A DNA stretch of 64,000 bases, from the NCBI RefSeq assembly GCF_005862235.1, contig NZ_VCEK01000005.1, positions 62,001 to 126,000 of the forward strand, given 5' to 3'. The translations under genes and the position numbers were made by a program. The notes beneath the pieces were generated by a model. The model ran no database searches, was not told where the DNA came from, and saw only the letters and a program-made list of their open reading frames with translations. The number at the start of each line of letters is the position of its first letter. Position 1 is the stretch's first letter. Below are positions 23,801 to 33,116 of the stretch, in pieces. The DNA comes from Saccharomonospora piscinae (GTDB taxonomy: Bacteria; Actinomycetota; Actinomycetes; Mycobacteriales; Pseudonocardiaceae).

Positions 23801-26666
23801 GCCGAGCGCCGAGGCGCTCCTCGACCAGCTCATCACCCTGCTCATCAGAGTGAGCTCGCGGCCCGACCGGCCGGTCGCCGCGCTGACCGCGCCCGACCCC
23901 GAGCCCAGCACCGTTGCGGTTCCGACCGGCACCTCGGGTACGTCCGCCGAGTCGGTTACGGAACTGGTGCGGCACTGGGCCGCGCGGAGCCCGGACGCCG
24001 TGGCCCTCCGCCACGACGACACCGTGCTCACCTACGCGGAACTGGATCGCAGGGCCGACGTCGTGGCGGACGAGTTGGCCGCCTCGGGATTGCGGCCCGG
24101 CTCCGTCGCCGACGTCGGGCTCGAACCGGGTATCGACCAGGTCGTCGCCCTCCTCGCGGTACTCAGGGCGGGCGCGGCCTACCGTGTGGTGGCCGGTGAC
24201 GGGAAGGTCACGGTGTCCGGCGAGGAGGTACCCCACGGCACCGCGTGCGTGGTGGAGGGCTCCGTACCGGTCGGCCACGACGCGTTGAGCCGATCACTGT
24301 GGGGCGCGCTCGTCGAGTTCGATGTGGGGCCGCGGGACGTCTGGTCCTACCGGCACTCGGCAGCGGCCGACACCTCGCTGTGGGAGCTGTGGGCGCCCCT
24401 TGCCGCAGGCGGAGGGCTGGTCATCGGGGAACCGACCGACGAGGTCACGATTCTGTGTCTCACCGCCACCGAGTTGCGGGCACTGACCCGCGAGGGGAGT
24501 CGGCCTCCACACCGTCTGCGGCTGCTCATCGGCTACGGGCCGGTGCACGAGGTGCCCTGGGACGTGCGCGCCGTGTCGGTCTTCTCGTCCGCTCGGACGG
24601 CGGGTGGGGCACTGCGCGGCGACGTGCGTCCCGGTGCGGCCCGCCGGGTCCGGCTCGGGACACCGCTGCCCGGCCGAACGGTCCGCGTCCTCGACGAGCG
24701 GGGCGGCGCGGTCCCCGTGGGAGCGCCCGGGTGGCTCTGGGTGGACGGTACGGAGGTGGGCGTCCGCGCCAGACGCACTCCCGACGGCGCGGTCGAGGAC
24801 CTGGGGCCCGCGACGCGGTTGCGGGGCTTCGATGTCGATCCGGCGGCCGTGGAGGCAGTGCTGTGCGACCGTGCCGACGTCAGTGACGCGAGCGTGGTCA
24901 CCGTGGCCGATCGCCTGGTCGCCTACGCCGTGCCCGCGCCGGGCGCGACCGGGGGCGGCCTGACCGAACATGTGACACAGCGGCTTCCCGGCTATCTCGT
25001 TCCCTCGGAGGTCCGTCTCGTCGAGGCGTTGCCGCGGGCGCGGGATGGCCGCGTGGACACCGCCGCGCTGCGAACACTGGCGGAGCGCGCCGAGCCGGCC
25101 GACAGCGCCGTCGCACCGCGTACCGGGTTGGAGCGCGAACTCGCTGAGATCTTCGCGGCAGTGCTCGGCGTACGCGGGGTCGGCGTGCACGACAACTTCT
25201 TCGACCTCGGCGGCGAGTCCATCAAGGTCATGCAGGTCGTGGCGCGCATCAGAGCCACAGGGCGGCAGGTCGCGGCCCGCGACGTCCTGCTTCGCCAGAC
25301 CGTCGCCGCTCTCGCCGCGCTTCTGGACGAGCAGCCGGCCCCCACGGACGCCGGGCTTGCGGGTCGCTCGGCGGACGTCACCGGAACGGTCGAACTCACC
25401 CCGGTGCAGCACTGGTTCTTCGAGAGCCATCCGATCGATCCGGACCACTTCAGTATGTCGGTGCTGCTGGAACTCGCCTCCCCGGTCGACGAGGACGCGT
25501 TGCGCACGGCGGTGGCAGCCCTGCGGCGGCAGCACGACGCTCTTCGTACGACCTTCGCGTGGGAAAACGGCCGGTGGCACCAGCACGGGGAACCGGACAC
25601 GGGCGAACTCGCACTCGACCGGGTGGAGGCGGGCGGTCCGGACGAGATCGACAAGGTCGCCCGTCGGACGCAGGAGTCCCTGCGGCTGAGTGGCCCGCTG
25701 TTCCGGCCGGTGCTGTTGGTGCGAGACGACGCGGCGACCCACCTGTTGCTCGTGATCCACCACCTCGTGGTCGACGCGGTGTCCTGGGACATCCTGCTCG
25801 GCGACCTCGAACGGGCCTACGCCAGGGCGAGTGCGGGCGAGCCGGTGGAGCTGGGGCCGAAGAGCACCCCGTTCCGGGACTGGGCGCGACACCTGCGGGA
25901 AAGAGCGGACGCGGGCGACTGGGACGACGAGATCGAGCGGTGGTCCACTTTTGCGGGCACGGCGCTGCCAGCGGATCTCGACGGCGAGCACACGGGGGCC
26001 AGCGCCGCCGAGGTGAGCGCCGAACTGGACGCCGAGACGACGTACACGTTGCTGCGCCGGGTGCCCGGCAGGTACCGGGCGAGAGTCGACGACGTGCTCG
26101 TCGCGGCGCTCGCCGCCGTCCTGGCCGGTTGGATCGGCGGGCGGCGGGTCACCATCGGCATGGAGGGCCACGGCCGCGAGGACATCGCCGATGACCTCGA
26201 CCTGTCCCGAACGGTCGGCTGGTTCACCACCATCTACCCGGTGGAGCTGAGCCTGCCCGCGACCGACGCTCCGGCCGCGCTGGTCCGTGCCGTCAAACGA
26301 CAGCTCCGAGCGGTTCCGCAGCGCGGGCTGGGATACGGCGTGCTCCGGTATCTCGCGGAGTCGGTGCCGGATGCCGCACCGCAGGTGTTGTTCAACTACC
26401 TCGGCGAGTGGGTCGACGACGGTGAGTCGGCCCTGGTGCGCAGGAAGATCTTCGACGTCGGCCGGGACGACAGTCCGGACGAGCGCAGACCCTTCCCCCT
26501 GGAGGTCGTCGGCAGTGTCGTGGAGGGGCGCTTGCGGCTTTCGTGGATCCATTCGTCCTCGGTGCACCGCGCGGAGACCGTCCGACGGCTGGCGATGGAC
26601 ATGATCGATGTGCTGCGGCGGATCGCGCACGACGGCGCGCGCGACACAGAGGGGAAGCGTGAATGA
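14883..26666 (+). CDS. NRPS, three modules: C-A-T-E / C-A-T / C-A*-T-E, no thioesterase
   Basis: 3927 aa. Approximate residues: C4 44-480 (HHVVTDGWS), A4 500-1000, T4 around 1034, E4 1093-1500 (HHLVVDGVSW), C5 1547-1985 (SHHLLLDGWS, post-E type), A5 2005-2490, T5 around 2522, C6 2580-3000 (HHIATDGWS), degenerate A6 3025-3405, T6 around 3442, E6 3504-3920 (HHLVVDAVSW). Hand-derived codes: A4 DLAESGAVD plus Thr in place of the A10 lysine, an acidic pocket suited to an Arg-like side chain; A5 DVWHISLVDK, a clear Ser code. The protein ends in an epimerase with no TE or reductase, so release must be in trans. It contains at least two TTA codons (16074-16076, 19284-19286). Its stop overlaps the MFS start. 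Confidence 0.95.
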   Translation: MSLSREQRIAALPEHVRAMLDARLAGRAELPDEDRIPTVSRQEPLPLSFAQQRLWFLHQYEPDGIEYNASVGLRLAGTLDRGALSHAVTGLVARHEALRTTFDTVDGIGVQRVAEPADVPVRLTDLSDVDDQAAELDRLARAEAARPFDLYTGPVVRFSLWRLSATEHVFVVSVHHVVTDGWSMGVLLRDFAALYGAAARGRTPKLPPLPVQPADVAVWQRERFTDDALADDLAYWRERLAGITPLELPTDRGRPAIRTTNGALHVTRVPAEVANGLTALCRERGATLFMLVVAATSALLSRWSGNHDIALGAISTGRARPELEHVVGDFTNTLVLRSAPQGAFDSYLAEVKQTVLGAFAHQDMPFDHLVDRLAPERDPSQTPLVQALIVLQNTGMALPDLPDLRVSEFRMPCLAAAFDITFDFAERDGGIDLSVEYNTDLFDLDTVERLAEGLTLLLQRVAVAPSETVEALPILTETDRARLLDWNDTTVPRPPDDPIQSLFEASVDRTPDAVAVRCGDTALTFRELDERANRLAHRLRECGVGPEILVGVFVERDVPAVVAILAVLKAGGAYLPLDPAFPADRLTFMLEDSAVPIVLTQQTVAELLPPANARVVLVDDDLSDQPSSRPDCHGISDNLAYAIYTSGSTGTPKGVLIEHRNLRYIAHAWDAYYGLSSSPPRFASVSSLSVDLFFADMLRSLFFGGTFVICPRDVVTDPPALLDLLESTGATALELVPSLLRTLVQEVRFRGTAFPPLDILSVGSEGWRAADCLDLLDVLDERTRVVNAYGGTEATVDSTVFEPSRDNLAGAAIVPVGRPLANTRVYVVDEQLRPVPVGVAGELCIAGDGLARGYLNRPDLTAERFVRVRSVPERRLYRTGDRCRRLADGTVEFLGRVDDQVKIRGFRVEPGEVEALLSTHESVRECVVVADATTGRNRLAAYVVGDEPDPTALRAFLGAELPAYMVPSAFVVLDRLPLTPAGTVDRRALPAPHAGAGTTGFVAPSTPVETQLATIWASVLGVENVGVLDNFFELGGDSILSIQMVAQARRAGLRLSSKDVFVRQTIRSLAVHVGSGPAPEAVTEQRTEPGPVVLTPVQRWFFDTYTVAPWHYTMSVLLDVADGIDHTALRDAFHAVVAHHDALELRYEHTAEGWRQAVPRERQRTATFETVAATTEEVDTIAREAQAGLDLANGPLVRAVLLRLDTGRTQLFLTIHHLVVDGVSWRILLSDLDAAYHRIVAGAEVDLGERTTSFQYWARRLAEYVRAGGFDDELPYWSRLDEFDPRLPVDAHGPNRAAAVDSVSVGLDADTTEALLTQAPSAYRTQVNDLLVSALAVVLARWTGRDRLLIGMEGHGREDLFDEIDLSRTVGWFTTHFPVPLTVAADGDPGVLIKSVKEQLRGVPRRGIGYDALRYLAEPTSPLADQAQPQLSFNYLGQWETGTAGALFEGRHVGVGADHSRDDHRQYLLDVACSVERGRLEFVWLYSTEIHRRSTIRRLAEEVVAALAELVDHCLLPGTGGATPSDFPLARLDQAAVERLADDEVEDLYPLTPTQAGMLFHSLMNSDSGVYVDQMSFVLDGADEPTRVGAAWQAVVDDTPILRSSFRWEGLPEPMQVVHRSARVPTVYFDWSGLPADEQEARARDYLDRERARGMALDEAPLLRLAVARISTTSVRVLRTSHHLLLDGWSTFHVLGDLVRHHDALRGASSATPPRRPPFRDYVAWLRDRDHTLAEAYWRDRLAGLDTTTPLPFDRPPAISHASEATASVTVPFPPGALRALADFAREHRVTVNTVTQGAWALLLSRYSGERDVCFGATVSGRPADLAGADDIVGMFINTVPVRVRIDPEHGLADWLRALQPEHAASREHEFVSLPDLAALSDLPGGSDLFDSIVVFENFPAETRTAADGGVRLDTVEGVESTSYPLNLLAYPGEDLAMMLTYDPGLFDAETVENLAEHLALLLDAFPRVAEGKLGDLPSATPRELRELARWNDTDHPVRPATLVNAFEAQVDRTPDATAVVAGDTALTYRELDAWANRFAHALLAEGLTADGTAAVLLPRGVEQVVALYAILKTGAAYLPVEVDLPDERIDFMLSDANPSVVVTDLPPRPTWPPAVRVVECREYAAERPKTPVADTAAAYVIYTSGSTGRPKGVVVPHRGIVNRLAWMQAEFGIGPDDRVLQKTPASFDVSVWEFFWPLQVGATLVVARPDGHRDPAYLASLIERESVTTVHFVPSMLRAFLAEPAIRRCSSLRRVICSGEALPAELWRRFREVLDAPLYNLYGPTEASVDVTYHRCAPGDVGATVPIGRPVWNTQVHVLGADLRPVPVGAKGELYLGGVQLARGYLNRPELTAERFVGTGPSRLYRTGDLARWRRDGTLEYLGRVDDQVKIRGFRVEPGEIEAVLTQHPDVSAAAVVTGGESDRLVAYLTPARADGVDVAAVRAALAARVPDHMVPASFVPLDELPLTTSGKLDRRALPEPVLSPVSSTAPRTPAERKLAGIWAENLGFDAVGADDDFFALGGDSIRSIGLAARIGDEFGVRVSPRDVFEAPTVARMAEVVTARSGSLPDAIPVSRLTGPLPLSFAQQRLWFLYNLAPDSPEYNVSSGLRLTGRLDVAALRVALTALVERHEVLRTTYLPSDGGGAQVVGEAAAPEFRVVAVAGEDQVRDHVRAEAARPFDLLGGPVLRALLLRVADDEHVLVLSMHHIATDGWSLGVLTRELTALYRGDTLPRPRLRYGDVAVWQRSGRGAEVLEDDLEFWRTELAGVRPLDLPTDRLRSPVKTHSGALCESSLPAGALAGLKGLCAGQGTTLFVALAAATQAVLWRWSGSSDVVLGTVTSGRDRPEVSDVVGFFVNTVVLRTRVDDTDSFTDLVAGVAETVSRTFAHQNVPFERLVDELDIPRDPSRTPLIEVMLVLQNAPVVPPELPGVTVTEYPVPSVATQFDLNVHCAERAGELDVLLEYNPDLFDRPSAEALLDQLITLLIRVSSRPDRPVAALTAPDPEPSTVAVPTGTSGTSAESVTELVRHWAARSPDAVALRHDDTVLTYAELDRRADVVADELAASGLRPGSVADVGLEPGIDQVVALLAVLRAGAAYRVVAGDGKVTVSGEEVPHGTACVVEGSVPVGHDALSRSLWGALVEFDVGPRDVWSYRHSAAADTSLWELWAPLAAGGGLVIGEPTDEVTILCLTATELRALTREGSRPPHRLRLLIGYGPVHEVPWDVRAVSVFSSARTAGGALRGDVRPGAARRVRLGTPLPGRTVRVLDERGGAVPVGAPGWLWVDGTEVGVRARRTPDGAVEDLGPATRLRGFDVDPAAVEAVLCDRADVSDASVVTVADRLVAYAVPAPGATGGGLTEHVTQRLPGYLVPSEVRLVEALPRARDGRVDTAALRTLAERAEPADSAVAPRTGLERELAEIFAAVLGVRGVGVHDNFFDLGGESIKVMQVVARIRATGRQVAARDVLLRQTVAALAALLDEQPAPTDAGLAGRSADVTGTVELTPVQHWFFESHPIDPDHFSMSVLLELASPVDEDALRTAVAALRRQHDALRTTFAWENGRWHQHGEPDTGELALDRVEAGGPDEIDKVARRTQESLRLSGPLFRPVLLVRDDAATHLLLVIHHLVVDAVSWDILLGDLERAYARASAGEPVELGPKSTPFRDWARHLRERADAGDWDDEIERWSTFAGTALPADLDGEHTGASAAEVSAELDAETTYTLLRRVPGRYRARVDDVLVAALAAVLAGWIGGRRVTIGMEGHGREDIADDLDLSRTVGWFTTIYPVELSLPATDAPAALVRAVKRQLRAVPQRGLGYGVLRYLAESVPDAAPQVLFNYLGEWVDDGESALVRRKIFDVGRDDSPDERRPFPLEVVGSVVEGRLRLSWIHSSSVHRAETVRRLAMDMIDVLRRIAHDGARDTEGKRE
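23950..25110 (+). other. Degenerate adenylation domain (A6*) inside the second NRPS
   Basis: Between C6 and T6 there are only about 385 residues where the other A domains of this system have about 500. An A-domain beginning (PDAVALRHDDTVLTYAELD) and an A8-like block (RLRGFDVDPAAVEAVL) remain. The SGSTGxPKG phosphate loop is absent, the A5 region reads GYGPVHEVPW instead of YGPTE, the YRTGD block is missing, and the A10 lysine is replaced in RDGRVDTAAL. It therefore cannot be expected to activate an amino acid. The reading frame is intact and the surrounding C, T and E domains keep their motifs, so the module is probably still used and loaded from outside. Confidence 0.85.

Positions 26667-33116: not shown

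Follow-up and report, generated by a model that had tools for sequence, protein, structure and literature searches.

A cyclofaulknamycin-type peptide synthetase of Saccharomonospora piscinae with a dead last adenylation domain that is probably replaced by a threonine-loading cassette

The nonribosomal peptide synthetase (NRPS) for cyclofaulknamycin, FlkP/FlkS of S. albus J1074, has six modules and ends in an epimerization (E) domain (PMC8399532). Its last adenylation (A) domain, A6, loads Thr in cis, and the product contains D-allo-Thr. An assembly line with the same published domain order is encoded in a 64,000-nucleotide stretch of the Saccharomonospora piscinae genome (contig NZ_VCEK01000005.1, positions 62,001 to 126,000; hereafter the window), but here the A domain of module 6, which we call A*, is dead. 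We conclude, at a probability of roughly 0.8, that this is a cyclofaulknamycin-type line in which the cis Thr A domain of module 6 appears to have been replaced by a trans-loading cassette of three genes, which encode a type II thioesterase (TEII), a short-chain dehydrogenase/reductase (SDR) and a stand-alone protein with an A domain and a carrier (T) domain (A-T). The likeness to cyclofaulknamycin, drawn with FlkS by domain order, includes a VioC homologue and a thioesterase (TE) of the penicillin-binding-protein (PBP) type; cyclofaulknamycin has FlkO, an MppK-type hydrolase. The window line differs by the lack of an intact Thr A domain in module 6 and by several additions: the cassette, a module 5 that is presumably of Ser type, an MppJ-type methyltransferase and a LeuABCD-like gene set.

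Trans loading of a module by a Thr-specific A-T protein is already known. The available part of PMC9943842 proposes for globomycin, himastatin and WS9326A that an A-T protein loads L-Thr, an SDR inverts the β-carbon and a TEII shuttles the L-allo-Thr; the recipient module is described as lacking an A domain, and the himastatin E domain then gives D-Thr. The descriptions available of HmtG/HmtF, WS21/WS22/WS20 and GlobD/GlobE/GlobC place an SDR beside a Thr A-T protein plus TEII, as in the window, where the three are likewise neighbouring genes. In those descriptions the recipient A domain of himastatin and WS9326A is lacking, whereas about 390 residues remain here. According to the accessible part of PMC8748450, experiments support a TEII shuttle for legonindolizidines, and one is inferred for WS9326A; the accessible part of PMC13320435 reports that a WS20-like TEII and EndD are required for enduracidin. 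In ramoplanin and enduracidin, according to the sections available, a Thr A-T protein (EndD in the latter) with an N-terminal extension of 300 residues serves a module that has no A domain at all; the extension is shared by the window protein, whose putative recipient keeps the dead A*. Non-functional A domains that stay in place while another A domain supplies the residue are known as well, from albicidin (Alb04) and from the dA domain of fungal SidD. The residues and feeders differ in these two, and the sections available describe no SDR/TEII cassette. Kutzneride (KtzN/KtzH) was considered as another precedent for a truncated A domain and set aside, since the sections available do not report one.

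The window line is made up of NRPS1 (5501..14878, forward strand; modules 1-3, A-T-C-A-T-E-C-A-T, where C is a condensation domain) and NRPS2 (14883..26666, forward strand; modules 4-6, C-A-T-E-C-A-T-C-A*-T-E), six modules in all with a TE domain in neither protein. A* occupies positions 23931..25100 of the forward strand (about residues 3017-3406 of NRPS2) and is followed on the same strand by the carrier domain T6 (25125..25352) and the terminal epimerization domain E6 (25365..26642), the limits of the last two being approximate. The distance from C to T is 407 amino acids in the A* module, compared with 524 and 509 in the other NRPS2 modules and 521 and 523 in NRPS1, so that A* is 102-117 residues short. 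Alignment with the cluster's six other A domains and with the corresponding domains of Amycolatopsis marina (see below) located the losses: the A3 ATP loop with the preceding stretch, the A5 core 'YGPTE', the A6-A7 stretch including YRTGD, and the GRxDxQ half of A8 are gone, and the A10 Lys is replaced by Arg. Six of eight scored catalytic positions are missing; the A3 loop, A7 Asp and A10 Lys expected of a functional adenylation domain are all absent. The A4 segment and the C-terminal subdomain region are retained, and Pfam recognizes pieces of AMP-binding (3.6e-22) and AMP-binding_C (3.1e-9). The original prediction, made from the DNA letters alone, had described A* as short and without the ATP loop, YRTGD and the A10 Lys, which the alignment confirms. 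It had also stated that C, T and E keep their motifs. This holds for C6 (HHIATDG), T6 (LGGES) and the EGHGRE and FNYLG motifs of E6, but not for the His motif of E6, which reads HHLVVDA in place of HHxxxDG (25758-25778) and is identical in A. marina. T6 must, as far as can be predicted from the sequence, be loaded in trans.

Searches with the last module (100 relatives), with the N-terminus of the A-T protein (297 genomes of the family and 80 from the genus of A. marina) and with the methyltransferase (53 loci in public genome contigs) found a single syntenic cluster, that of Amycolatopsis marina CGMCC 4.3568 (G334/L045), which belongs to the same family, Pseudonocardiaceae, and to a different genus. 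Gene order is identical from the LeuA-like to the VioC-like gene, except that no LeuB gene was called in A. marina. The two NRPS2 proteins share 69% identity from end to end. A* is 58% identical and shows the same loss in an open reading frame, which argues that the loss is not due to chance, and the cassette is kept together with A* there, its A-T protein having the code DFWNIGMVHK. The ratio of nonsynonymous to synonymous change (omega, Nei-Gojobori, this one pair of strains) is 0.354 for A*, 0.349 for C6, 0.250 for T6 and 0.371 for E6, and ranges from 0.226 to 0.260 for the six other A domains. All of 90 neutral simulations (30 at each of three base compositions) gave values of at least 0.80. 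A* is thus under purifying selection, weaker than the selection acting on the other A domains and similar to that seen in its neighbors; it is an old, maintained remnant rather than the product of fresh decay. That the domain had decayed in place instead of being absent, as the original prediction put it, is seen in both strains, although this state has the precedents in albicidin and SidD.

The A-T protein (30447..33116, reverse strand; 889 amino acids, T motif GGNS), the SDR (33140..33964, reverse strand) and the TEII (33961..34671, reverse strand; nucleophilic Ser in GHSFG, the proposed aminoacyl shuttle) form one row of genes at 30447-34671, in A. marina as in the window. The code DFWNVGMVHK is as originally read; the A-T gene lies 3.8 kb from the end of NRPS2, not three, with an exporter, a P450 and a methyltransferase in between. 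The same gene set recurs elsewhere. Nineteen neighborhoods were read from the A-T N-terminus searches (matches in G296 and G299 excluded), and 14 more from an SDR search of 394 genomes from the class, which gave matches at E<=1e-95 in 14 (own genome included; 14 of 15 other matches read). A cassette-type A-T was called in 17/19 and 12/14 of these, and an SDR and/or TEII lies near it in 28 of the 29 other neighborhoods. The cassette SDR shares 57-68% identity with those encoded next to other cassette A-T genes. With the window and A. marina included, 30 of the 31 A domains in cassettes carry the code DFW[SN][VI]GMVHK, and all 31 form one exclusive clade (support 1.0) among the 187 A domains assembled for signature analysis and trees. 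The predicted feeder is therefore a recurrent TEII-SDR-A-T cassette beside NRPS genes and not a lone A-T protein, as had originally been supposed. Since the A-T protein belongs to a cassette with SDR and TEII, the residue delivered would, by analogy, probably be L-allo-Thr rather than plain Thr.

Intact counterparts of module 6 were found in a further set of genomes. A search with C4-A4 in 392 genomes of one genus (g93, probably Streptomyces) gave matches at E<=1e-230 in 23, and the neighborhoods of nine of these were examined. Four of the nine (G809, G828, G1012 and G860) contain the complete line, with PBP-type TE, NRPS1, NRPS2 and VioC-like hydroxylase, and domain-by-domain matching supports its homology with the window line. 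Their modules follow the same order as in the window, except that NRPS1 opens with a partial C-like stretch; G1012 and G860 have the cyclofaulknamycin module order, with codes that we take to be of Phe type for A1 and of Thr type for A5 and A6. The module 6 A domain is intact in all four lines (code DFW[NS][VI]GMVHK, C-to-T distance 535-537 amino acids), and no cassette-type SDR or A-T was found in the 60 kb read of each; the best SDR identities were 28% (G1012) and 33% (G860), and the best TEII reached 34% in two of the lines. A* itself carries a trace of this A-domain type. The signature W...HS...D.S[VL]WE around the specificity pocket occurs in 35/35 A domains with DFW codes (30 in cassette A-T proteins, five in assembly lines), in six domains coded DVW[NS]VAMVHK and in A* of both strains, and in none of the remaining 144 of the 187. 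A* thus retains what appears to be the mark of the DFW/DVW type, which includes Thr-coded domains. Intact Thr-coded counterparts without a cassette, together with this signature in A*, indicate that the cis Thr A domain of module 6 has probably been replaced in trans. Comparison with homologous clusters, with A* recurring in A. marina and an intact Thr-coded A6 in 4/4 related lines, in this way upholds the part of the original prediction that a separate Thr A-T protein feeds module 6, while changing the feeder into a cassette and the residue probably into L-allo-Thr.

Several observations weigh against this reading. The signature is also present in two A domains coded DVWC[VI]A[QM]VYK, beyond the set of 187, and so marks a clade and not strictly Thr. 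The full-length tree of the 187 A domains does not resolve the origin of A*; the position that it offers, a pairing with a dead A domain of G460 (support 0.744), possibly reflects long-branch attraction and was set aside. The partial C-like start of NRPS1 in the four related lines is absent from the window, and C6, T6 and E6 resemble position 4 of those lines about as well as position 6, so that synteny and domain order are the basis for treating module 6 as orthologous. G860 does have a 520-residue stand-alone A-type protein (31% identical to the A-T protein) and a generic SDR, the 33% match given above. In 14 of the 28 cassette neighborhoods that have a called A-T and were read over more than 30 kb, no A-deficient module was seen; either the cassette is not always paired with one or the module is encoded beyond the DNA read. 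The SDR step has been published only as a hypothesis, and A* has been found in two strains only.

For the replacement we infer the following course, and with it every catalytic step, the sequence of events, the direction in which the residue is passed on, its stereochemistry and the reason why the scaffold persists. The ancestral last module would have loaded Thr by its own A domain until a TEII-SDR-A-T cassette was acquired. The cassette A domain would load L-Thr onto the cassette's own T domain, the SDR would invert the β-carbon on the carrier by oxidation and re-reduction to give L-allo-Thr, and the TEII would carry the residue to T6. C6 would then condense it, and E6 would epimerize the α-carbon to leave a C-terminal D-Thr. 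The module's own A domain would have become redundant, or harmful by loading unmodified Thr, and would have lost catalysis, but its scaffold would have been retained, probably because it positions C6 and T6 or serves as a docking site for the loading proteins.

Release would fit this course. A beta-lactamase-family protein (PF00144, 4.8e-54) is encoded about 2 kb upstream of the window at L021:8508-9827; it matches SurE at 2.7e-78 and Ulm16 at 2.6e-59, has a copy of 64% identity in A. marina, and is a PBP-type TE and the probable stand-alone cyclase of the cluster. According to the part of PMC11735501 available, PBP-type TEs link an L residue at the N-terminus with a D residue at the C-terminus, and D-Thr is accepted by FlkO, whose native residue is D-allo-Thr. 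The preference for a C-terminal D residue fits a line that ends in E, and the enzyme would use the C-terminal D-Thr for head-to-tail cyclization. The expected product would be a head-to-tail cyclic hexapeptide with a Phe-type residue first and D-Thr last.

Other ways of accounting for T6 were weighed. It might be loaded by another A domain of the same line, such as the Ser-type A5, with the cassette serving some other step; the sections of the SidD work available report that A1 loads two T domains, with loading between modules past a truncated A domain. In the cluster, however, a single stand-alone A-T with a Thr code is matched by a single module whose A domain is dead, the module 6 counterparts are Thr-coded and the cassette is conserved with A* in A. 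marina, so we regard this as improbable. Somewhat poorer is the prospect that the cassette only makes free L-allo-Thr, released by TEII hydrolysis, and that another A domain activates it for T6. This alternative is stated for globomycin, in the portion of the source available, where every module has an A domain; here module 6 has no working one, and the cluster holds no second stand-alone A-T, although A-domain open reading frames are present elsewhere in the genome. Just as little likelihood attaches to a line that ends at module 5, module 6 being dead or skipped and A* a by-product of decay: the DA in place of DG in the E6 His motif and omega values of C6 and E6 somewhat above those of most other domains would agree with it, but values of 0.35-0.37 for C6, A* and E6 and of 0.25 for T6 across two genera argue for use. 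Least probable of all is an A* that remains able to adenylate some unusual substrate, or that plays a part when complexed with another protein. Purifying selection and the retained A4 segment and C-terminal subdomain region speak for it, but the ATP loop, A5 core, A7 and A10 Lys are gone in both strains.

Modules in other cassette neighborhoods have also lost their A domains, to varying degrees. In 33 such neighborhoods, a T domain comes directly after 15 of the 96 C domains, as opposed to 0/47 in control NRPS loci (52 methyltransferase loci with A. marina excluded, of which 22 have both C and A domains); Fisher's test gives p 0.0026, the loci not being fully independent. The 15 C-to-T distances are 124, 106, 73 and 69 residues and eleven of 11-42 residues. 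The four long stubs align with the same part of A*, approximately A6-A8; three score 17.7, 13.8 and 11.8 bits with the A* model (best of 3,000 shuffles 7.2), and the fourth scores 7.0 bits with that model and 8.3 with an intact-A model (best shuffle 7.3). One architecture is common to seven of these lines (G033, G187, G333, G529a, G529b, G747 and G653b), whose intact A domains form an exclusive clade (support 0.999) and whose distances are, in the same order, 106, 69, 73, 124, 28, 28 and 29, which we read as graded A-domain loss within one kind of line. Full-length remnants also occur. In G661 one A domain is of full length but has a ruined ATP loop and Arg for the A10 Lys, and there are also an A-less C-T pair and a second stand-alone A-T; G460 (L188-L191) has two motif-less A domains, one of them shortened and directly beside the cassette. 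The other contains an apparent inserted methyltransferase. When dead domains in place were counted as those missing three or more of the eight catalytic positions, with fragments below 420 residues left out and A* excepted, the cassette-bearing sets gave 5/136 (window 1/7, A. marina 1/7, class 3/48, family 0/74) and controls 0/51, a difference too small to claim enrichment. The series runs from full-length dead A domains through stubs of 124-69 residues to nothing, with A* between the full-length forms and the stubs. The intermediate stage that was originally envisaged thus exists as a series, but A* itself is held under purifying selection.

The A-T protein presents the opposite picture at its N-terminus (32187..33116, reverse strand), an extension of about 300 residues with the segment AHPAVAG at the position of the active site. 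The available part of PMC8949500 describes the corresponding 300-residue extension of the ramoplanin and enduracidin proteins as without substantial homology to known sequences and, for ramoplanin, as required for loading in trans. In the relatives read here, by contrast, it has the features of a degenerate C domain. Pfam gave no match in the window copy. A profile of 31 extensions matched a profile of 60 C domains at 99.8% probability over 329 columns; a profile built from the five members without a significant match of their own reached 94.9%, and twenty column shuffles never exceeded 0.4%. Taken alone, the extensions of the window and A. marina gave 2%, which is not significant, and the relation needs the further members. 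The G237 extension keeps AHHLVVDE and matches C domains at an E-value of 7e-44, and the His pair is gone in the other 30 of 31. Omega of the extension between the two strains is 0.508, indicating faster evolution than that of A*. By profile comparison, then, the extension is a degenerate C domain. For this reason the free A-T protein is most simply read as a former C-A-T module whose C domain has decayed, the mirror image of module 6. A further and more tentative idea, which we think rather unlikely though worth stating, is reciprocal degeneration: two C-A-T modules would have become one split module, the line copy keeping C and T and losing A, the free copy keeping A and T and losing C, with the dead halves (A* and the C-like N-terminus) retained as docking faces toward T6.

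The remaining parts of the cluster bear on the product. The NRPS1 codes are DAWTVAAVCK, DGLCIGGIVK and DAFVVGVSIK, the first of which we take to be of Phe type; those of NRPS2 are DLAESGAVD(T) for A4 and DVWHISLVDK, presumably of Ser type, for A5. A4 has Thr (ACG, 17829-17831) at the expected position of the A10 Lys, which is present in A. marina and in the four related lines; this is either a real loss or a sequencing error. Between NRPS2 and the cassette lie a major facilitator superfamily (MFS) exporter (26663..27943, forward strand), a P450 (P450b; 28013..29215, reverse strand) and the MppJ-family methyltransferase (29220..30338, reverse strand), whose true start is probably near 30227 by comparison with A. 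marina and whose best solved relative is MppJ (1e-142). This enzyme and a Phe-type first A domain make β-methyl-phenylalanine a possible building block. Genes resembling LeuA, LeuC, LeuD, an aminotransferase and LeuB head the cluster (L021:10826-12000 and window positions 1-4279) and suggest α-keto acid chain elongation toward an unusual residue. Beyond the cassette are an alpha/beta hydrolase, abh1 (34840..35634, forward strand), and the VioC/GntD-type Fe/2-oxoglutarate hydroxylase (35720..36703, forward strand), a relative of which adjoins NRPS2 in the four related lines. The aminoacyltransferase shuttles SyrC and CmaE use a Cys nucleophile. Transfer of that type by abh1 was considered and ruled out because its nucleophile is Ser (GFSLG), as is that of the TEII. 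No MbtH-like gene was found in the whole genome (G000), unlike the cyclofaulknamycin and WS9326A clusters, which have one. Hydrogenase-maturation-type genes (HypF, HypD; 39607-46105) downstream of the cluster are apparently unrelated to it.

As far as the literature covered extends, part of it in excerpt, a cyclofaulknamycin-type line whose cis Thr A domain is apparently replaced by an allo-Thr cassette appears to be new, as do the selective maintenance of a dead scaffold and the gradation among the remnants; we do not claim that A-domain stubs as such are absent from print. Intact cis Thr loading in cyclofaulknamycin-type lines and trans loading here would form a before/after pair, and this pair and the graded remnants together make the switch from cis to trans, and the residual role of the dead A domain, directly testable. 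The degenerate condensation domain, finally, is offered as the identity of the type of extension on which trans loading depends in ramoplanin.

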